Assembly: GCA_019313025.1 (NCBI GenBank)
Contig: JAFDCA010000056.1
Span: 1-14,617 of the forward strand
Origin: Deltaproteobacteria bacterium
Lineage (GTDB): Bacteria > Desulfobacterota > Desulfobacteria > Desulfobacterales > UBA11574
Length of the DNA: 14,617 nt
Direction of reading: 5' to 3'
Shown here one piece after another: positions 3,224 to 10,661 of the stretch. Positions within the stretch are counted from its first letter, which is position 1. The number at the start of each line of letters is the position of its first letter. The notes under the pieces are model-generated. The model ran no database searches. It saw only the letters and a program-made list of their open reading frames with translations, and had not been told where the DNA came from. The position numbers and the translations under genes were made by a program.

Positions 3224-3517
3224 TCATTCTGCCTTGGGTTTGAAGGATTTTACATCAATAACTTTCACACCATCTTCTTCTTCTACGTCACCCGTTACTT
3301 CAACAACCTCTCCCATAAGTTTTAACACTTCGTCGCCCATCTCTGTATCGGCTATTTCATAGATAGTGCCGTCTTTGGTGACGATTTGATATTGGTCGTT
3401 GATCTCGCCCACAATGGTTACTGTTTTGGGTTCAGCGATTACCGGAGCTGAAAGAAACATTGAAAAAACAAATACCACTAAAAATACAATGGAAATCTTG
3501 GAAAAAAATTTTTTCAT
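3224..3517 (-). CDS. Small secreted protein of unknown function, possibly OB-fold
   Basis: This 97-residue protein has a clear signal peptide (MKKFFSK, hydrophobic core, cleavage after PVIA near residue 28), leaving a mature domain of about 69 residues that is predicted to be periplasmic. The mature part is acidic and rich in alternating valine and isoleucine (TVTIVGEINDQYQIV, then VVEVTGDVEEEDGVKVIDV), which looks like a small beta-barrel of the bacterial OB-fold kind. That assignment comes from pattern only, and I do not recognise a named family. The start has an excellent Shine-Dalgarno sequence, AAGGAG, eight bases upstream. A sigma-54 promoter sits about 55-70 bp upstream of the start codon, so expression is probably conditional and activator-dependent. 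A 25-codon frame overlaps the start codon as ATGA. Confidence 0.75.
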   Translation of the reverse strand: MKKFFSKISIVFLVVFVFSMFLSAPVIAEPKTVTIVGEINDQYQIVTKDGTIYEIADTEMGDEVLKLMGEVVEVTGDVEEEDGVKVIDVKSFKPKAE

Positions 3518-3591
3518 ACACCTATCTCCTTATGTTGGGGTTCATCTGCTGAAATACGATCACAGGGAAAAGCAAACTTTATGCCAAACAT
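3514..3591 (-). CDS. Possible 25-aa upstream ORF overlapping the secreted-protein gene
   Basis: On the minus strand an ATG at 3591 is preceded by a perfect AGGAGG (plus-strand 3596-3601) with four-base spacing. The frame runs 25 codons (starting MFGIKFAFPCDRIS) and stops in a TGA that overlaps the next gene's ATG as ATGA. This arrangement is typical of translational coupling. Against it, the sigma-54 promoter core (3571-3586) lies inside this frame, so a transcript from that promoter would lack its start. Both can be true only if another promoter lies further upstream. Confidence 0.25.
   Translation of the reverse strand: MFGIKFAFPCDRISADEPQHKEIGV
3571..3586 (-). promoter_or_regulatory. Sigma-54 (RpoN) -24/-12 promoter for the small secreted protein
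   Basis: The minus strand reads TGGCATAAAGTTTGCT. This matches the consensus TGGCAC-N5-TTGCW at all but one base and has the required GG-N10-GC spacing (GG at 3585-3584, GC at 3573-3572). The predicted transcript start is near 3560, giving a leader of about 43 nt before the ATG at 3517. Sigma-54 promoters need an enhancer-binding activator, whose site would lie in the interval up to about 4100. Confidence 0.7.
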
Positions 3592-4105
3592 ATAACCTCC
3601 TGAATTTACAATTTATATCCATAACGCGCCCCATTAACTGTAACAACAAATTCTGCTCGACAGGCAGAAGGAAAACGCATCAAAACCTTTTAAAGAAGAA
3701 AATAGCATGAATTTCGGTGTGTTAGCGGTTTCGTTTAATAAATTGATTATGGAGAATTACCATGTCCGATATGGCTGAAATCGGACGTCGTAATTCCTGT
3801 CTGTGACATTATAAACCAAGGAATTAATATGTCGCTCTGAATAAAGACGATGAGCAAAAACCGCAAGAAGCCTAAAGCCTTAATTTCGAAATCTATTAAC
3901 AATATAAAATCGAATCCAATTTGACATCCCGCCACTTAGTGTGGTTCAATGAAGATTCTCTTAATCGGGGTACCGGGGTGCTTCATTGCCGGTTGACCGT
4001 TAATTTCAAATGAAAACAAAATGTTTGTTTTTAGATAGGAACCTTAAGTTCCGAAATCAAATGGACAAAAGACCGATATTACATAATATTAAGCACTTAA
4101 TTGTT
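3592..4105. promoter_or_regulatory. Shared upstream region between two outward-facing sigma-54 promoters
   Basis: No gene of normal size lies here. Several inverted repeats could be activator or integration-host-factor sites: GTCCGAT/ATCGGAC (3764-3770, 3780-3786), TAATTCCT/AGGAATTA (3791-3798, 3819-3826), TTCAATGAA (3946-3954), TTTCAAATGAAA (4004-4015), AAAACAAA/TTTGTTTT (4013-4020, 4024-4031) and GGAAC/GTTCC (4038-4042, 4048-4052). A TTGACA at 3921 has no good -10 partner. Two tiny plus-strand frames are also present: 14 codons at 3762-3806 with a GGAG seven bases upstream, and a lysine-rich 24 codons at 3850-3924. Neither is convincing alone. Confidence 0.4.
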
Positions 4106-4121
4106 TGGCACGACAGTTGCT
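4106..4121 (+). promoter_or_regulatory. Sigma-54 (RpoN) -24/-12 promoter for the methyltransferase/ATP-grasp operon
   Basis: The sequence TGGCACGACAGTTGCT is an exact match to the consensus TGGCAC-N5-TTGCW, with GG at 4107-4108 and GC at 4119-4120 separated by ten bases. The predicted transcript start is near 4132, leaving a leader of about 208 nt. It faces the operon that starts at 4340 and points away from the matching promoter at 3571-3586. Confidence 0.85.
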
Positions 4122-4131
4122 AAAGGTTAAT

Positions 4132-4339
4132 ATCATTTAGCTTGTCGGAATGAGGCGGCGATCCAACGCAAGCGGGGTTGGCCCTTAAATCAATGAAAAC
4201 CGGCGAACTAAACAACAGGCTGGTCCCCAAAAAACAGGACAGGCAAGGTAAACCCTTATAGAAAGGCAATAGCCTGTGCGTTTGTTATGTTTTGTTCAAT
4301 TAGAAAAAATTTTGAAAAACGCTATATGAAAGGAGCGTC
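4132..4339 (+). promoter_or_regulatory. Long 5' leader with hairpin potential
   Basis: The stretch between the predicted sigma-54 start and the ATG at 4340 is unusually long. It can form CCAAC/GTTGG (4163-4167 with 4177-4181) and a longer-range ACAGGCT/AGCCTGT (4215-4221 with 4271-4277) enclosing GTCC/GGAC (4223-4226 with 4237-4240). It does not match any riboswitch consensus I know. It also contains short frames of 12 codons (4150-4188) and 22 codons (4193-4261) without good Shine-Dalgarno sequences. The last 50 bases are AT-rich and end in AAAGGAG, five bases before the start codon. Confidence 0.3.
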
Positions 4340-6343
4340 ATGAGACAATTAAAAAATGTGTCCGACAAAGCTGTAACGCGGGTAAAAAAATCGACGCATC
4401 AGGCAGTGGTATTAGGACCTGTAGATTCTCTTGAAGACTATGTTCAGGCGGATTGGTGGAGCAACATCTTCAACTCCCTTTACCTTAAAACCGATGCGGA
4501 TGTTGTTGAAGATCTAAACATTACGCGCAAAGAAGTCGATTTGTTTTCAAAAATTCTAAATTTAACAACGGATGATACGATCCTTGACTTATGTTGCGGT
4601 CAGGGTCGACACGCATTGGAAATCACCAAAAGAGGATTCAAGGTCGAAGGCTTGGATCGGTCACGCTTTCTGATTCAAAAAGCCAAGGCTTCGGCAAAAA
4701 AAGAGAATCTTAACGTTAAGTTCAAAGAAGGTGATGCCAGAAAACTTCCTTTTCCTCCTGACAGTTTCGAGGTTGTCATGATGCTTGGTAACAGTTTCGG
4801 GTATTTTGAAACCGTTCAGGACGACCTGAGGGTCATGAAAGAAATATTCAGGGTTTTGAAGCCATGGGGACGACTGCTTTTGGACGTAACGGATGGTGAG
4901 TACCTTAAAGAAAAGTTTAAAGCTCGTTCGTGGGAATGGATTAATAAAAAACTTTTCGTCTGCCGAGAGCGTTCTCTTTCCGCAGACCGGCAGCGTCTTA
5001 TTTCCCGGGAAGTAATAACAGACGTAACCAAAGGCGTCATCGCCGACCAGTTTTATGCCGAAAGACTTTACACCAAAGACGACCTATTAACACTTCTTAA
5101 AGAGGCAGGCTTTTCCGATGTGGCCATTCATGCTGAAATTGAGACGGATTCGGTGAGAAACCAGGATCTTGGAATGATGGAAAAACGGATTGTGATTACC
5201 GGAAAAGTCAAAAAGGAATGGACGCCGATCAAAAGAAGACTTCAAAAAGCAGCGAAGAAAAAAATCGCAGTGCTTTTCGGTGATCCCAACAAACCAGATC
5301 CGCTCAAACCTTGTGCGGTTTTCGACGACGATGATCTTTACACCATCGATCAATTGAAATCGGCACTGCATACCTTACAAGAGTACGATTTTATGTACCT
5401 CTCGAATCACAACACGATTATTCCGGATCTGAACAAACTTTCCGGAAAAGTCGATCTGGTCCTCAACCTATGCGACGAAGGATACAACAACGATCCCCGA
5501 AAGGAACTGCACATTCCGGCATTGTTGGAAATACTCGATCTCTCCTATACCGGCTCTTCTTCCCAGTGCCTTGCCTTTTGCTATGATAAATCGCTGGTAC
5601 GCGGTATCGCCAAAGAAATGGAAATCCCGGTTCCAGAGGCGTTTTTTATTGAACCGGATGACACTGCGTTCAATCTGCCGTTTTCTTTTCCCGTCATCGT
5701 CAAGCCCAATTTCGGGGACTCCAGCTTCGGCATCACCCAACAAAGCGTTGCTAACAACCACGAGCAATTGATCAATTCCATTTCTTTTATCCGAGAAAGA
5801 CTGGGATATGATAAGCCGATTCTGGTTGAAGAGCTTTTAACGGGAAAAGACCTTAGCGTGGGAATCATCGGAAATCCCCTGACATCGTATACGGTGTTGC
5901 CGGTAACCGAAGAGGATTACTCGGATGTCCCTGATGATCTGCCGCGTATTTGCGGATATGAGGCCAAATGGCTCCCGGACTCACCGTATTATAAAATAAA
6001 ATCTATTCCAGCGAAATTGGAGGAAACAACGGAAAAATTTATTGTAGAATGCTGTATGAAGTTGTTCGACCGACTGGAATGTCGGGATTACAGCCGATTT
6101 GACTGGAGGCTTGATGCCAATGGGACACCCAAACTCTTGGAAGTAAATCCCAATCCGGGCTGGTGTTGGGACGGACATTTGGCCAAAATGGCCAAATTCG
6201 GAGGGATGTCATATGCCGAAATGTTACAGGCGATTCTCCAGGCAGCTGAACAAAGGTTAGAATTTTCACGCGTATCCAGCACCGCGGCTTGTATTCAAAA
6301 CGGTGTGGCTGCTCAGCCCGTAGTATATATGCAAAAATCATAA
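4340..6343 (+). CDS. SAM methyltransferase / D-Ala-D-Ala-ligase-like ATP-grasp fusion
   Basis: This 667-residue protein joins two enzymes. Residues about 60-295 are a class I SAM-dependent methyltransferase: motif I is DLCCGQGR (83-90), a later acidic loop is GDARKLPF (131-138), and RVLKPWGRLLLDV (171-183) fits motif III. Residues about 305-645 are an ATP-grasp ligase of the D-alanine-D-alanine ligase type: VDLVLNLCDEGYNND (371-385), YTGSS (403-407), VIVKPNFGDSSFGI (452-465), VEELLTGKDLSVGII (496-510), and the Mg-ATP residues in RFDWR (Asp588) and EVNPNPG (Glu601, Asn603). The chain should ligate a carboxylate to an amine using ATP and methylate a substrate or product; neither substrate can be read from sequence. 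The start is fixed by AAAGGAG five bases upstream. It is the first gene after a sigma-54 promoter and precedes two peptide or amide hydrolases. No signal peptide, so cytoplasmic. The catalytic motifs look intact. Confidence 0.85.
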   Translation: MRQLKNVSDKAVTRVKKSTHQAVVLGPVDSLEDYVQADWWSNIFNSLYLKTDADVVEDLNITRKEVDLFSKILNLTTDDTILDLCCGQGRHALEITKRGFKVEGLDRSRFLIQKAKASAKKENLNVKFKEGDARKLPFPPDSFEVVMMLGNSFGYFETVQDDLRVMKEIFRVLKPWGRLLLDVTDGEYLKEKFKARSWEWINKKLFVCRERSLSADRQRLISREVITDVTKGVIADQFYAERLYTKDDLLTLLKEAGFSDVAIHAEIETDSVRNQDLGMMEKRIVITGKVKKEWTPIKRRLQKAAKKKIAVLFGDPNKPDPLKPCAVFDDDDLYTIDQLKSALHTLQEYDFMYLSNHNTIIPDLNKLSGKVDLVLNLCDEGYNNDPRKELHIPALLEILDLSYTGSSSQCLAFCYDKSLVRGIAKEMEIPVPEAFFIEPDDTAFNLPFSFPVIVKPNFGDSSFGITQQSVANNHEQLINSISFIRERLGYDKPILVEELLTGKDLSVGIIGNPLTSYTVLPVTEEDYSDVPDDLPRICGYEAKWLPDSPYYKIKSIPAKLEETTEKFIVECCMKLFDRLECRDYSRFDWRLDANGTPKLLEVNPNPGWCWDGHLAKMAKFGGMSYAEMLQAILQAAEQRLEFSRVSSTAACIQNGVAAQPVVYMQKS

Positions 6344-6364
6344 CTTCTCAACCAATTAAGGGCT

Positions 6365-7786
6365 ATGCTGCAGCGAAAAATGTCTGCCCGGTTAAAGATA
6401 AAATCAGCTTCTCTTGAAAAGATCCACACAGCCATAGACCAAGATTTTGAGCGACACCTGGACAAATGTCGGGCCTTTTTGAAATTGAAGAGTATTTCAG
6501 CAACCGGAGAGGGTATTCGCGAAACCGCAGAGAGGATCAAAGAGATCATCACAAATCTCGGCGCTGAGGTTTCCTTATGGGGCAATCCGTCGTTTCCTAT
6601 TGTCTATGGCCGCTTGAATGCCGATGCAGAAAAGACGTTGATCATTTACGGTATGTACGATGTTCAGCCGGCAGAAGAGCGAAACTGGATATCCTCTCCG
6701 TTTGAAGCTGAAATTCATAACGTCAAAGGCGTAGGGCCGTGTGTGATTGCAAGAGGCGCTTGTAATTCCAAAGGAGTACTGAGCGGATTTTTTAATGTTC
6801 TGGAGACGATTAAGACCAACGATACCTTTCCTGTAAATCTTGTTTTCACCATAGAAGGAGAAGAAGAAGTCGGAAGTCCCCAATTTGAAGCTTTCATCCG
6901 CGCCCACCGGAAGGAGCTTCAGGGTTTTGGCGTGGTCGATTTTGATTTCCTGCAAGATATGAAAGGAAAAGTTGCCATGCTACTGGGGCATAAGGGCATC
7001 GTGTGCATGGATCTCGTCTGCCGGGGGGGCAAAAGCGGAGGACCCATAGGCACGTCCCTTCATGGCGCGGACATTGCCTGGATAGCCTCACCGGTGTGGC
7101 GCCTGATCCATGCCTTGGGTTCGCTGACAGACCGGAAAGAGAATATCAGGATTCCCGGTCTACATGAAGCCGTGGCACCTCCGAGCAAAACAGACCTGCA
7201 ACTGCTTAAAAATCTGGCACAAACCTTTGACGAAACGGCGTTTCTCAAAGAGATGAAAAGCCGGCGTTTTAAATACGATCGTTCCGGAATTGAACTGCTC
7301 AAGAAAGGACTCTATTCGCCGACAATCAACATCAACGGATTTAAGTCCGGCTACACAGGATCCGGCACCAAGACGGTTCTTCCAAGAAAGGCAACCGCCA
7401 AAATCGACATCCGCTTCGGACCGGATCTGGAGCCTGAACAAGTCGTGGAACATTTTAAAGCCCATTTGGCAGACCAGGGTTACGCCGATATCGAAATTAT
7501 TGTCAGAGACGCGTATACCTAAGCCAAGACAGATTTTTCAGAACGTGTTGTTCAGAAAATGCTTCAGGCCTTCCGTTTGCATGGTATCGAACCCGAGGTA
7601 TGGCCCATGTCCACATCCGCCGCCCCGTATTTTGCTTTCCAGAGAATTCTGGACATGCCGGTGGTTAGCGGCGGTCTCGGCCATGGCGGTAGACCGCATG
7701 TCTCCAATGAATACATGTCCGTGACAGGCTTAAAGGATTTTGAGAAATTCGCCGCCTCTCTCCTTTACACAGTGGCCACAGAATAA
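6365..7786 (+). pseudogene. M20-family dipeptidase-like metallohydrolase interrupted by an in-frame TAA
   Basis: The open frame from 6365 codes 385 residues and stops at TAA 7520-7522. The same frame then continues without a shift for 87 more codons to a TAA at 7784-7786. The joined length of about 473 fits M20 dipeptidases. YGMYDVQP (95-102), RGACNSKG (130-137) and EGEEEVGS (164-171) mark the first half. GLGHGGRPHVSNEY, carrying the last conserved metal-binding His, lies after the stop. The 385-residue product would therefore lack a metal ligand. The usual first ligand His is Met97 and the usual bridging Asp is Asn134, so even the intact form is atypical. M20 enzymes cleave dipeptides or N-acyl groups. 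It starts 21 bp after the fusion gene with only a poor Shine-Dalgarno sequence; Met6 at 6380 is an alternative start. The lesion may be a nonsense mutation, an assembly error or a readthrough site. Confidence 0.8.
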
Positions 7787-7859
7787 AACCTATTTTGTAA
7801 GATCTCAGTTCGTGAGGTTGGATATTGACTCGACTCACGGATACAGATAAGAGATACGT

Positions 7860-8744
7860 ATGAAACCCAAAATAATTGTACATGGCGGTGCAAGCAACTC
7901 CAACATAAACGAACCCGAACGCCAAAAAGATGTCATCAACGCCTGCAAACTAGGTTATGAAGTTTTGTTGAAGAAAGACGCGGTTGAAGCGGTTGAAACT
8001 GCCATACGCAAATTGGAAGCTTCCGCGTATTTTAATGCCGGCGTTGGCAGTTATCTTCAATTAGATGGAAGGGTTCGGATGGATGCCTCGATTATGAAGG
8101 ATGACTTGTCTGCCGGTGCCGTTATCGGTATTGAAAATGTGGAACATCCCATATCCGTCGCCCGAAGAGTCATGGAAACCACCCAGCATGTCATACTGTC
8201 AGGACCGCTTGCCACGGAGTTTGCACATTCTGAAGGTTTTCCAAGGTATGATCCCCGCACGAGATCCAAGATTAACCTGTGGATGGAAATTATGGATGAA
8301 TTCCGCAAAAAAACGACGTACGAACAGATATTCCATGTCGATAAATATTTAATTGCCGGAAGATATCACCTTGGAACGGTGGGTTGTGTCGCCATGGATG
8401 CAAGTGGCAATATTGCCGCAGGCACATCCACTGGAGGTTTAAAAATGAATGTCCCCGGAAGGGTCGGAGATTCAGGAATCATCGGTGCCGGAACCTACTG
8501 TTCAAAATACGGAGGTGTTTCCTGTACAGGTCATGGTGAAAAAATTCTGATTCTGGTTTTGGGAAAGCAGGTCGTAAATTACCTGAAACATAAAAAGTCG
8601 GCCAATGCAATGGATGCTGCAAACTACGGCATTGAAGAATTAAATTCGTTACCTGCTGAAGGCGGTTTAATCTGCATCGACAAGAACGGAAATATAGGAT
8701 ATGCCTACAATACCCGGGTTATGACAATGCATTATATCGAGTGA
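7860..8744 (+). CDS. Isoaspartyl peptidase / L-asparaginase (Ntn hydrolase, T2 family)
   Basis: This 294-residue protein is a plant-type (EcAIII/IaaA-like) asparaginase. Such enzymes are made as an inactive precursor that cleaves itself before a threonine, which becomes the N-terminal nucleophile, and they hydrolyse beta-aspartyl dipeptides and asparagine. Visible marks are IIVHGGA (5-11), FNAGVGS (58-64), MDASIM (74-79), the cleavage site GTVG with Thr173 as predicted nucleophile, TSTGG (189-193), NVPGRVGDSGIIGAGTY (207-223) and TGHGE (233-237). Length and layout are normal. The third position of GRVGDSxIIG is Gly, where many relatives have Pro. AAGAG seven bases upstream supports the start. 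It lies 73 bp after the broken M20 gene in the same direction, so it probably belongs to the sigma-54 operon and acts on the same kind of compound, which is inference. No signal peptide, so cytoplasmic. Confidence 0.88.
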   Translation: MKPKIIVHGGASNSNINEPERQKDVINACKLGYEVLLKKDAVEAVETAIRKLEASAYFNAGVGSYLQLDGRVRMDASIMKDDLSAGAVIGIENVEHPISVARRVMETTQHVILSGPLATEFAHSEGFPRYDPRTRSKINLWMEIMDEFRKKTTYEQIFHVDKYLIAGRYHLGTVGCVAMDASGNIAAGTSTGGLKMNVPGRVGDSGIIGAGTYCSKYGGVSCTGHGEKILILVLGKQVVNYLKHKKSANAMDAANYGIEELNSLPAEGGLICIDKNGNIGYAYNTRVMTMHYIE

Positions 8745-8765
8745 AGATTTCCGCATTAAAAGGCT

Positions 8766-8784
8766 GGGCTTTTTGAAAAAGCTC
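8766..8784 (+). terminator. Short hairpin after the asparaginase gene (weak terminator candidate)
   Basis: GCTTTTT (8768-8774) and AAAAAGC (8776-8782) pair around one base, about 22 bp after the stop codon, with one wobble and one G-C pair extending it. The stem is mostly A-T and no T-run follows on the plus strand, so termination would be weak. It marks the likely end of the operon's main part. Confidence 0.25.
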
Positions 8785-8869
8785 CAGGGGGATACCATCT
8801 TCCCTCTGCCTCGCATCATATTCATCCTCACCATAAAAGACTGGGGAGCCTGGTGTATTTTCATAAATT

Positions 8870-8903
8870 TATTTCGAATCGAGTTCTGACCCGATTCGAA
8901 ATA
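8870..8903. repeat. 12-bp perfect inverted repeat upstream of the 134-aa gene
   Basis: TATTTCGAATCG (8870-8881) and CGATTCGAAATA (8892-8903) pair exactly around a 10-nt spacer. The dyad is about 68 bp upstream of the ATG at 8971, a position that would suit an operator or a leader hairpin. It sits inside a wider pair of 9-bp arms, AGCTCCAGG (8780-8788) and CCTGGAGCT (8933-8941), which could close a larger RNA structure. Confidence 0.55.
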
Positions 8904-8970
8904 TAATTCATAGAAAAATAGAATCCCGGGTTCCTGGAGCTAAAAAACAATCAAAAACGACGAATGCAAT

Positions 8971-9375
8971 ATGGAACAAACACTGATAAAAACCATGGAG
9001 CTCCGTAATGGTTTGAAATTAGATCTTTATGACATTTCCCGCAAACTGGCCGGCGACCGGTGGTACGTCGGGATGATTGCACAGATCGATATTCCACTGA
9101 CGGATTCGCTACTAACAAATCAACTGCTTTCAAATTACAGGTTAGAAGAAATTAGAAACGCACTCGGAGAAGTTGTCAGTTTCCAAAAGAAAATGGACCG
9201 CCATTTTATCGCCGAAGGGGAAAAAGACGCGTTGCTGCATGGCTTGATGGATTCTTTTATCAAAAGTTCGTTAAGCTATCTTTCCCATCCAGATTTTTCA
9301 ATCAAGTATGTTCATAAAGAAATTAAAGCGTATCTGAAACAACAGGCTTGGTACAAAGGTGATCATCGCGGATAA
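8971..9375 (+). CDS. Conserved-looking cytoplasmic protein of unknown function, 134 aa
   Basis: I cannot name this family. The N-terminal part (MELRNGLKLDLYDISRKLAG, then DRWYVGMIAQIDIPL) looks like beta-strands with a conserved-seeming Asn-Gly and Asp-Arg-Trp. The middle (residues 60-110) is helical and charged, and the end (YVHKEIKAYLKQQAWY) is basic. There is no signal peptide or membrane segment. Residues look codon-constrained and the frame is open end to end, but no good Shine-Dalgarno sequence precedes 8971; Met9 is an alternative start. It is separated from the asparaginase gene by 226 bp containing inverted repeats, so it may have its own control. It converges with the histidine kinase gene across about 40 bp. 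Confidence 0.6.
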   Translation: MEQTLIKTMELRNGLKLDLYDISRKLAGDRWYVGMIAQIDIPLTDSLLTNQLLSNYRLEEIRNALGEVVSFQKKMDRHFIAEGEKDALLHGLMDSFIKSSLSYLSHPDFSIKYVHKEIKAYLKQQAWYKGDHRG

Positions 9376-9416
9376 GCAGATATACAGTTTGCCGGACATC
9401 TTGTTAATCAGGCATC

Positions 9417-10661
9417 TTAAGACCTTTCGTCCAATTTTCGACTTTCAGCCGCCGGCAGATAGATTTTCACCAGAGTTCCTTTCTTGGGCTGTGATTCGAC
9501 TTCAATCCAACCACCATGGTTCTGGACAATACCATGGGCGGCTGCCATGCCCAGCCCGCGTCCCTGAAACTTGGTGGTAAAGAAAGGATCAAACATCCTT
9601 TTCCTGATGGCTTCATCCATTCCCTTGCCGGTATCCTCAACCGAAATGCAAATATACGAATCCGTAAAATGGCTGTCGTGCGCATTATCGGATTCTCCGG
9701 TAATTTTGAAATCATGTGTCCGAATTGTAATTTTCCCCGAACCTTCGATGGCTTCCACGGCGTTTAGCACCACCGAAGATATCACCATTTTTAACTGGAC
9801 GGGATCGACGTCAATTTCATACATCGCATTTTTAAATGCCGACACAATTTGAATGTCAGGTGTAATGGCATGCCGGATCAGTTCCAAGGTCTCTGAAACG
9901 AGATTGTTTACCGCCATTTGTGTTGTTCGATATTTACCGCCTTTCGAAAAAGCCATCAACTGCTTGGTTAGCTTTACCAGGCGATGCGTTTGGGCTTCCA
10001 TGTTTTTAGCGTATTCTTTGATGCCAATATTGTCATCAAAGTTCTTCTTCAGCATTTCCAGATTTCCCATAATTCCTTGCAGGGCATTGTTAAATTCATG
10101 TGCAATGCCGCCGGCTAACGTGGCAATGGCCTCCAGACGCTGGGTTTCTAAGAGTCGGACTTCTAGTTTTCTTTTATCTTTTTCGGCCTGTTTTCGTTTG
10201 GAAATATCAAAAAACGATGCCATGCGGCCGACCACGTTCCCTTCACTATCGGTAACATATGAGGCGGAGACCTCTACTGGAAAGGAAGTTCCGTTCCGGC
10301 GAAGTACTTCAAATTCTTCGGCCTCTCCACTGGCACGGTCAATAATGGCCTTTACATCGGCAAACGTTCTAACCTTGTCTGAAGCAAACAAGTCGGCTGC
10401 ATTTTTACCGTAAACATCGACCTTGCCGTCATATTCAAACAGTCTTAAAAAGGTGTTGTTGACGTAGCGAATGTTGCCTTCTAAATCGGCGATGATCACG
10501 CCGCTTACCGAAGAATTCAGTGCATCGCGAACCACACTGAGTTCCGCTGCGTATTGTTTCCGTATCGATCTGATCCTGTCAAATTCGGAAAGCTTGCGCT
10601 GCTGGCGAATGCTTCCCAGACTTTTTTTAATCGGATGATTGGAATTTTTATCGTTTAGCAT
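9417..10661 (-). CDS. PAS-domain sensor histidine kinase, NtrB-like
   Basis: This 414-residue cytoplasmic kinase has a PAS domain at about residues 42-155 (ALNSSVSGVIIADLEGNIRY to FFDISKRKQAE). A phospho-acceptor helix pair follows, with the H-box GGIAHEFNN (His188), then an ATPase domain with N-box VVLNAVEAI (297-305), G1 DTGKGM (343-348), F-box FDPFFTTK (357-364) and G2 GRGLGM (367-372). All catalytic motifs are present. HEFNN H-boxes are common in kinases that drive sigma-54 activators, but no response regulator is encoded in this window, so the partner is elsewhere. No transmembrane segment is visible, so the signal is probably sensed inside the cell. The start has AAAGG about six bases upstream. 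It is the last gene of a probable run with the phosphofructokinase and universal stress protein genes. Confidence 0.9.
   Translation of the reverse strand: MLNDKNSNHPIKKSLGSIRQQRKLSEFDRIRSIRKQYAAELSVVRDALNSSVSGVIIADLEGNIRYVNNTFLRLFEYDGKVDVYGKNAADLFASDKVRTFADVKAIIDRASGEAEEFEVLRRNGTSFPVEVSASYVTDSEGNVVGRMASFFDISKRKQAEKDKRKLEVRLLETQRLEAIATLAGGIAHEFNNALQGIMGNLEMLKKNFDDNIGIKEYAKNMEAQTHRLVKLTKQLMAFSKGGKYRTTQMAVNNLVSETLELIRHAITPDIQIVSAFKNAMYEIDVDPVQLKMVISSVVLNAVEAIEGSGKITIRTHDFKITGESDNAHDSHFTDSYICISVEDTGKGMDEAIRKRMFDPFFTTKFQGRGLGMAAAHGIVQNHGGWIEVESQPKKGTLVKIYLPAAESRKLDERS

Follow-up and report, generated by a model that had tools for sequence, protein, structure and literature searches.

We analysed a stretch of 14,617 nucleotides (positions 1 to 14,617 of contig JAFDCA010000056.1, assembly GCA_019313025.1; hereafter the window) from a bacterium of the Desulfobacterales, and concentrated on a gene that joins a methyltransferase to an ATP-grasp ligase in one chain (hereafter the fusion). 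Directly downstream lie a gene of the M20 peptidase fold and a gene of the T2 family (Table 1). All three are co-directional, with gaps of 21 bp between the fusion and M20 and of 73 bp between the end of the M20 homology and T2, and a preliminary description of this DNA had read them as an operon. Strand and spacing in the window agree with that reading, but a scan of positions 3500-9500 for promoters and terminators gave no excess over shuffled sequences (10 versus a mean of 9.2 and 8 versus 6.9, respectively). Since the scan stayed at the shuffle level, the case for an operon consists of spacing and strand only.

Table 1. Fusion gene, its domains and the two downstream genes in the window
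Feature	Position	Strand	Pfam match
Fusion, 667 aa: N-terminal class I S-adenosylmethionine (SAM) methyltransferase and C-terminal D-Ala-D-Ala-ligase-type ATP-grasp amide ligase	4340-6343	+	
Methyltransferase core, residues 81-177; LDLCCGQG motif I, acidic D106	4580-4870	+	Methyltransf_25, E=4.6e-21
ATP-grasp catalytic domain, residues 447-634	5678-6241	+	Dala_Dala_lig_C, E=1.8e-26
Marks of the ATP-grasp domain: K455, R586, D588, E601, N603; omega loop EAKW; EVNPNPGWCWDGHL			
M20-fold protein, ends at in-frame TAA 7520-7522; variant metal site GMYD, ARGACNSKG	6365-7522	+	
T2 (N-terminal nucleophile hydrolase) plant-type asparaginase / isoaspartyl aminopeptidase, intact	7860-8744	+	Asparaginase_2, E=4.1e-83

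The preliminary description had recognised a SAM methyltransferase and a D-Ala-D-Ala-ligase-type ATP-grasp domain with complete motifs in one chain, and this was borne out by Pfam and by an alignment of 81 rows, namely the window protein and 80 genome loci. Methyltransferase residues D83, C86, G87, G89, D106 and N151 are identical in all 81 rows, as are ligase residues D331, D332, D379, K417, K455, S462, K543, W544, R586, D588, E601, N603, W610, D611 and H613; C85 (77/81), D132 (79/81), A133 (80/81), E380 (80/81) and S461 (76/81) are near-invariant. Since the 81 rows keep the inspected positions of both active sites invariant or nearly so, a chance origin of the fusion is ruled out. The N-terminal half carries the marks of a class I SAM methyltransferase (Pfam match, and the motif I Gly loop and acidic D106 in every row), and the C-terminal half those of an ATP-grasp carboxylate-amine ligase (the fold, catalytic lysine K455, arginine R586 and the D588/E601/N603 metal triad). 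Foldseek searches with a predicted model of the fusion (predicted local distance difference test score, pLDDT, 73; predicted template-modelling score, pTM, 0.52) matched the ligase half to the Ddl structures 3r5x and 1iow (target template-modelling score, TM, about 0.8) and the methyltransferase half to the SAM methyltransferase 3d2l. Judged by its sequence, the fusion is a real, conserved bifunctional enzyme.

Relatives of the fusion are numerous. A protein search (E<=0.001) returned at least 5580, and all 120 of the 120 among the matches listed hold both a methyltransferase domain and Dala_Dala_lig_C; their sources include Desulfobacterales, Spirochaetota, WOR-3 and Poribacteria, and their database names are 'D-alanine-D-alanine ligase' and 'methyltransferase domain-containing protein'. 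Scanning species-representative genomes located 537 fusion-encoding stretches, the best 80 of which were analysed as fusion loci. These come from bacteria and archaea and are 63-84% identical to the window protein (median 68%), a range that applies to the kept 80, the two peptide patterns used in the scan favouring conserved members; more divergent fusions exist, with 60% identity in genome G556 and 49% in one genome from the phylum Zixibacteria. The bacterial records bear titles such as Planctomycetes, Atribacteria, Aminicenantes, Thermotogota and Spirochaetes, and the archaeal ones titles such as Methanophagales, Altiarchaeota, Jordarchaeia and Lokiarchaeota. In a quick tree, the window fusion pairs with that of Candidatus Desulfatibia vada (L001, support 98), and bacterial and archaeal fusions interleave, Methanophagales L010 grouping with Thermodesulfobacterium L033 (support 95) and Lokiarchaeota L070 with Thermotogota L075 (support 93). 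Most rows derive from metagenome-assembled genomes, and binning errors may add to this interleaving of domains; the fusion of L035, titled Nitrosotalea, is almost identical to that of Methanophagales L031, and one of the two is probably mis-binned. Within groups the fusion is a minority trait, found in 9 of 241 genomes of the class of genome G001 and in 3 of 132 Zixibacteria genomes. Spread on plasmids was considered and rejected: none of the plasmid records spans 80% of the fusion, and of the 584 that match, at below 60% identity, the 20 listed all align with the ligase half. No description of the fusion was found in the literature searched; the available part of a paper on archaeal fusions (PMC11237513) does not mention a methyltransferase-ligase fusion. 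At four Phycisphaerae-type loci (L028, L034, L064 and L071) the fusion lies near trmD or the genes for ribosomal proteins S16/L19, named by reading the sequence, a proximity that is probably functionally meaningless.

The best curated model for the window fusion is Ddl (TIGR01205), yet its score of 117.6 bits falls far under the cut-off of 245.65, and the fusions of 20 carrier genomes score 113-132 bits against the same model. A separate Ddl above the cut-off was found in 15 of these 20 genomes, the remainder being G004, G009, G012 (a Jordarchaeon), G013 (an archaeon) and G019. The ligase half shares with Ddl the fold and what we take to be the ATP-binding lysine and the metal residues D588/E601/N603, together with R586 and the Glu-Ala-Lys of the omega loop. 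In the solved Ddl 5d8d, however, the omega loop reads EAKY and the acceptor loop EVNTVPGMTSHSL, as compared with EAKW and EVNPNPGWCWDGHL in the fusion, which lacks both the Ddl-type Lys-Tyr pair and the Ddl acceptor loop (motif EVNT.PGMT.HSL), residues K543, W544, W610, D611 and H613 of the fusion being identical in all 81 rows; it also differs from Ddl in being joined to a methyltransferase. This pattern suggests that catalysis has been kept and the acceptor pocket changed relative to 5d8d. Since 15 of the 20 carriers have a separate Ddl and the fusions score far under the cut-off, the fusion is not the cell-wall ligase, and the preliminary description was right in not treating it as a plain Ddl. 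A plain D-Ala-D-Ala or D-Ala-D-Lac ligase, as the database names and the best curated model would have it, is already contradicted by the scores, the separate Ddl and the replaced acceptor-site residues, and also by the occurrence of the fusion in archaea that are not known to have peptidoglycan. We rejected this explanation and leave it almost no probability.

The preliminary description had further proposed that fusion, M20 and T2 act together in one cycle, and had itself named homologues mostly without the two hydrolase genes as the finding that would speak against it. This is what was found: in tblastn searches of the 80 fusion loci, the M20 protein (query P0121) lay beside the fusion in none and T2 in one (L001, 85% identity), where T2 is upstream and a homologue (72%) of the histidine kinase of the window is downstream. 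At least 1.5 kb was available downstream of the fusion at 72 loci, upstream at 67 and on both sides at 62, with 3 kb on both sides at 44, and absences are uncertain at loci cut by contig ends. In view of these counts, the three-gene cycle is not the general context of the fusion, and M20 and T2 in the window look like local neighbours rather than regular partners. Searched from the other side, 2 of 12 genomes carrying the M20 clade (ten from a draw of the phylum, plus G135 and G012) hold the fusion (G302 and G012), on contigs other than that of M20; a further eight have homologues of its ligase or methyltransferase half that are not the fusion, and no such homologues were found in G340 and G135. 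Among the 241 genomes of the class of G001, M20 matches (E<=1e-30) occur in nine, none above 36% identity.

The middle gene had been called M20 dipeptidase-like. Its fold and its position next to the fusion stand, but the gene is truncated and two metal ligands are replaced. Pfam finds M20_dimer and Peptidase_M20 in the window open reading frame (ORF), and homologous reading continues in frame past its stop codon to position 7786. Since the nearest relative, P0121 (473 aa), is 99% identical over the piece and full length, there are intact copies, and that of the window is cut short by a mutation or a sequence error; the lost segment includes the C-terminal metal-ligand histidine (H445 in P0121). 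Recoding of the stop was rejected, as the aligned segments of relatives have no internal stop, and single stops flagged for four matches fell outside their aligned segments. By alignment count, all 120 listed relatives have Met at the position of a metal-binding His and Asn at that of the bridging Asp, together with Glu167, Glu168, Asp194 and His233, while His445 is present in 117 and gapped in three; in an alignment of 18 rows, which goes down to 35% identity and takes in an archaeon, a Cytobacillus plasmid and G135 (35-39%), M97, N134, E167, E168, H233 and H445 are invariant. In aligned structures of characterised M20 enzymes the two variant positions are occupied by His and Asp, which we take to be metal ligands, so that the complete di-metal set (His, bridging Asp, Glu, Asp, His) is absent from the clade of the window. 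The fold itself was recovered by Foldseek with full-length P0121 rather than the window copy (4mmo, 2pok, 2zof). The clade resembles CNDP2, DUG1 and Sso-CP2 in fold (target TM 0.79-0.90; 4mmo_A, 2zof_A, 4g1p), in its EGEEE motif and in the C-terminal His, but differs from them in the Met and the Asn. Since the subfamily carries these at two metal-ligand sites, 'dipeptidase' is a fold assignment only. In a distant plasmid protein (L131, 31%) the His is kept and Ala stands at the second metal site, as judged by eye.

This M20 clade has members in 10 of 395 genomes from the phylum draw, with 61-84% identity to P0155 and one of the genes partial; another six matches lie at 30-32%. The Met/Asn clade (P0121-P0240, L127, L128, L130) is conserved across Desulfobacterota, an archaeon and a plasmid of the Bacillus group. 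In two of the ten Desulfobacterota loci, some of which are short contigs, the gene comes after two Ddl-type ATP-grasps in tandem (L119:9341-13134 and L126:556-5257), and so the pairing of ligase with M20 recurs, but with other ligases; L126 also holds a GNAT gene and a lysine 2,3-aminomutase-like gene, the latter named by similarity to the Pfam-scanned L144 protein. In L128 and L130, M20-clade genes lie beside M14 carboxypeptidase-/aspartoacylase-like genes and oligopeptide-type ABC transporters. No description of the Met/Asn variant was found in the literature searched, and the clade poses a second, separate biochemical puzzle.

The third gene was correctly described as an isoaspartyl peptidase/asparaginase. 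Besides its Asparaginase_2 domain it has HLGTVGC in the translation, the Gly-Thr of which is presumably the cleavage and nucleophile site of T2 enzymes; the NCBIfam beta-aspartyl-peptidase model gives 161 bits, below its 567-bit cut-off. T2 occurs in 3 of the 241 genomes, one of them a fusion carrier (hypergeometric 0.11, with no phylogenetic correction), and close orthologues in G124 and G240 stand in genomes that lacked the fusion when searched again. A single dedicated pathway in which fusion, M20 and T2 make, methylate and degrade a dipeptide-like compound can draw on the layout of the window and on L001, where T2 also adjoins the fusion, in a different order. The M20 cluster of P0122 and the fusion cluster of P0011 each have a longest contig of 34,506 bases, which may hint at linkage in another population, and the same M20 clade stands beside the ATP-grasp pairs of L119 and L126. 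Against this, M20 and T2 are hardly ever next to the fusion, few M20-clade genomes carry it, T2 orthologues occur without it, and the window M20 is truncated within a clade that has lost two canonical metal ligands; we consider such a pathway improbable. Carnosine metabolism, which comprises a synthase, a methyltransferase and an M20 carnosinase, is an imperfect parallel: the window holds a ligase, a methyltransferase and an M20 fold, but its M20 is a truncated, non-conserved partner with an altered metal site, and there is no sign of beta-alanine or histidine.

A different hydrolase, absent from the window, adjoins the fusion in 7 of the 80 loci: an M14 gene of the AstE/aspartoacylase deacylase type, downstream in L002, L003, L004, L007, L011 and L012 and upstream in L038, a weak partial match in L068 (35% over 144 aa) being left out of the count. 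The L003 protein matches AstE_AspA_cat (Pfam, E=5.2e-24) and the other six are 57-65% identical to it; L038, titled TA06, lies outside the Desulfobacterota clade in the tree. In the class of G001, M14 was found in 4 of 241 genomes, all four among the nine fusion carriers (hypergeometric 9e-7, the draws being taken as the same 241 genomes). Both genes share a contig in G004, G010 and G011; in G006 they lie on two contigs, M14 at the beginning of its own and the fusion close to the end of the other. The phylum draw gave M14 in 1 of 390 genomes, G556, on a 10.2-kb contig without the fusion, which G556 carries on another. The earlier idea that the ligase is paired with an amide hydrolase is therefore retained for M14, and not for M20 or T2; on present comparisons, M14 is the better-supported partner.

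On the basis of its domains, its conserved active sites, its distribution, its association with M14 and its difference from Ddl, all of which were observed, we favour, with moderate confidence, the interpretation that the fusion is a bifunctional ADP-forming amide ligase/methyltransferase for a small methylated amide, turned over by M14 in some lineages. The C-terminal half would use ATP to phosphorylate a small carboxylate and couple it to an amine, with release of ADP and phosphate, and the N-terminal half would transfer a methyl group from SAM to one building block or to the amide product, the outcome being a small methylated amide or pseudo-dipeptide. The fusion gene lies in highly diverse surroundings, mostly with no partner that recurs, and its product would act as a portable module complete in itself; in some lineages, Desulfobacterota among them, the M14 deacylase would probably take the amide apart. 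M20 and T2 would be lineage-specific neighbours in the window, where T2 may cleave a related beta-aspartyl amide. For its general chemistry, a likeness exists to Cp1B of the fungal E-64 pathway: the available part of PMC12568646 describes an ATP-grasp enzyme that activates a carboxylate for a small-molecule amide, works with an amide bond synthetase and contributes to products carrying agmatine or putrescine, that is, polyamine-type amines, agmatine being the one in the Cp1B product. Cp1B differs in that its structure is likened there to glutathione synthetase rather than Ddl and its cluster is fungal, with no methyltransferase mentioned in that part (PMC12568646).

Several loci bear on the amine acceptor of the fusion. 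Locus L032 (Zixibacteria) holds, in a row, what we take to be a pyruvoyl arginine decarboxylase, a deoxyhypusine-synthase-like gene, an agmatinase and the fusion, and L150:4180-8618 presumably an agmatinase, a pyruvoyl arginine decarboxylase, two Ddl-type ATP-grasps and a methyltransferase. L150 belongs to G470, a genome without the fusion in which the ATP-grasps and the methyltransferase are separate genes, and it looks like a counterpart of the fusion that is split up and lies among presumed polyamine genes. A presumed deoxyhypusine-synthase-like gene lies upstream of the fusion in L005, and presumed arginine decarboxylase and carboxynorspermidine-dehydrogenase-like genes lie on the opposite strand in L004. 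These names were read from the sequence and checked by similarity among loci, the L150 methyltransferase was assigned by Pfam, and the agmatinase match among fusion loci was obtained with the L150 protein as query. Only the contiguous rows in L032 and L150 suggest a polyamine link, and on a re-check of Zixibacteria by eye the fusion loci L168 and L169 had no polyamine neighbours. We regard a diamine or polyamine acceptor as a tentative guess.

A number of points weigh against the interpretation as an amide ligase/methyltransferase with M14 turnover. The sequence by itself points to no substrate, and the activity is one that we infer; polyamine genes occur within 10 kb in 3 of the 80 fusion loci, near chance by a hand estimate. 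As many as 73 of the 80 loci, some cut by contig ends, have no strong adjacent M14, and M14 is absent from five of the nine carriers in the class of G001, so that turnover by M14 is not a general feature. Shared ancestry is not taken into account in the M14 statistic, and a single clade unites the window with the nine Desulfobacterota-type loci (L001-L007, L011 and L012), six of which have an adjacent M14. Finally, the structural model is only moderately confident and does not fix the arrangement of the two halves, raising the possibility that these have unrelated substrates and are fused for co-expression or stability only. We doubt this strongly, since the fusion order is kept throughout the 80 best relatives and since a separate methyltransferase and two ATP-grasps are neighbours in L150 as well.

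Alternatively, the product of the ligase half might not be a metabolic amide: the ligase might tag peptide or protein ends or make a natural-product dipeptide for secretion. ATP-grasp ligases serve in peptide tagging and natural products, the acceptor-loop residues differ from Ddl in every row, and in L052 a sugar-transfer-associated ATP-grasp (Pfam) lies directly upstream of the fusion and a gene with no Pfam match, ATP-grasp-like by eye, directly downstream. However, ORF clustering of the 80 loci, in which short peptides were not searched, revealed no recurrent transporter or biosynthetic cluster, and the varied surroundings argue for ubiquitous substrates; we hold this alternative to be rather unlikely.

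In a bolder version of the amide ligase/methyltransferase interpretation, to which we give a low probability, one bifunctional enzyme would make the same methylated amide across many bacteria and several archaeal lineages, Asgard archaea included, having passed between the two domains as a single mobile gene. The amide could be a methylated amino acid-polyamine conjugate, for example, used as an osmolyte, thermoprotectant or signal, and its breakdown would fall to hydrolases that can replace one another, namely M14, T2 and the members of an M20 clade whose rebuilt metal site would have its own non-canonical chemistry. High conservation together with presence in a minority of the genomes of each group normally marks a useful, portable biochemical trick, and many uncultured lineages, including Asgard archaea, would gain an assigned metabolite if the product were identified. 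The fusion of L003 is that of Desulfonema magnum, which we take to be a cultured organism.

Elsewhere in the window, a 134-aa ORF with no Pfam match lies between T2 and the histidine kinase gene (8971-9375). A link of the fusion to lysine 2,3-aminomutase, and hence beta-lysine, was not used, a KamA-like gene being present in none of the 80 fusion loci. KamA-like genes do stand beside other Ddl-type ATP-grasps, in L126, L144, L146-L149 and L152, and the combination in L144, L146-L149 and L152 may represent a beta-lysine amide pathway separate from the fusion.

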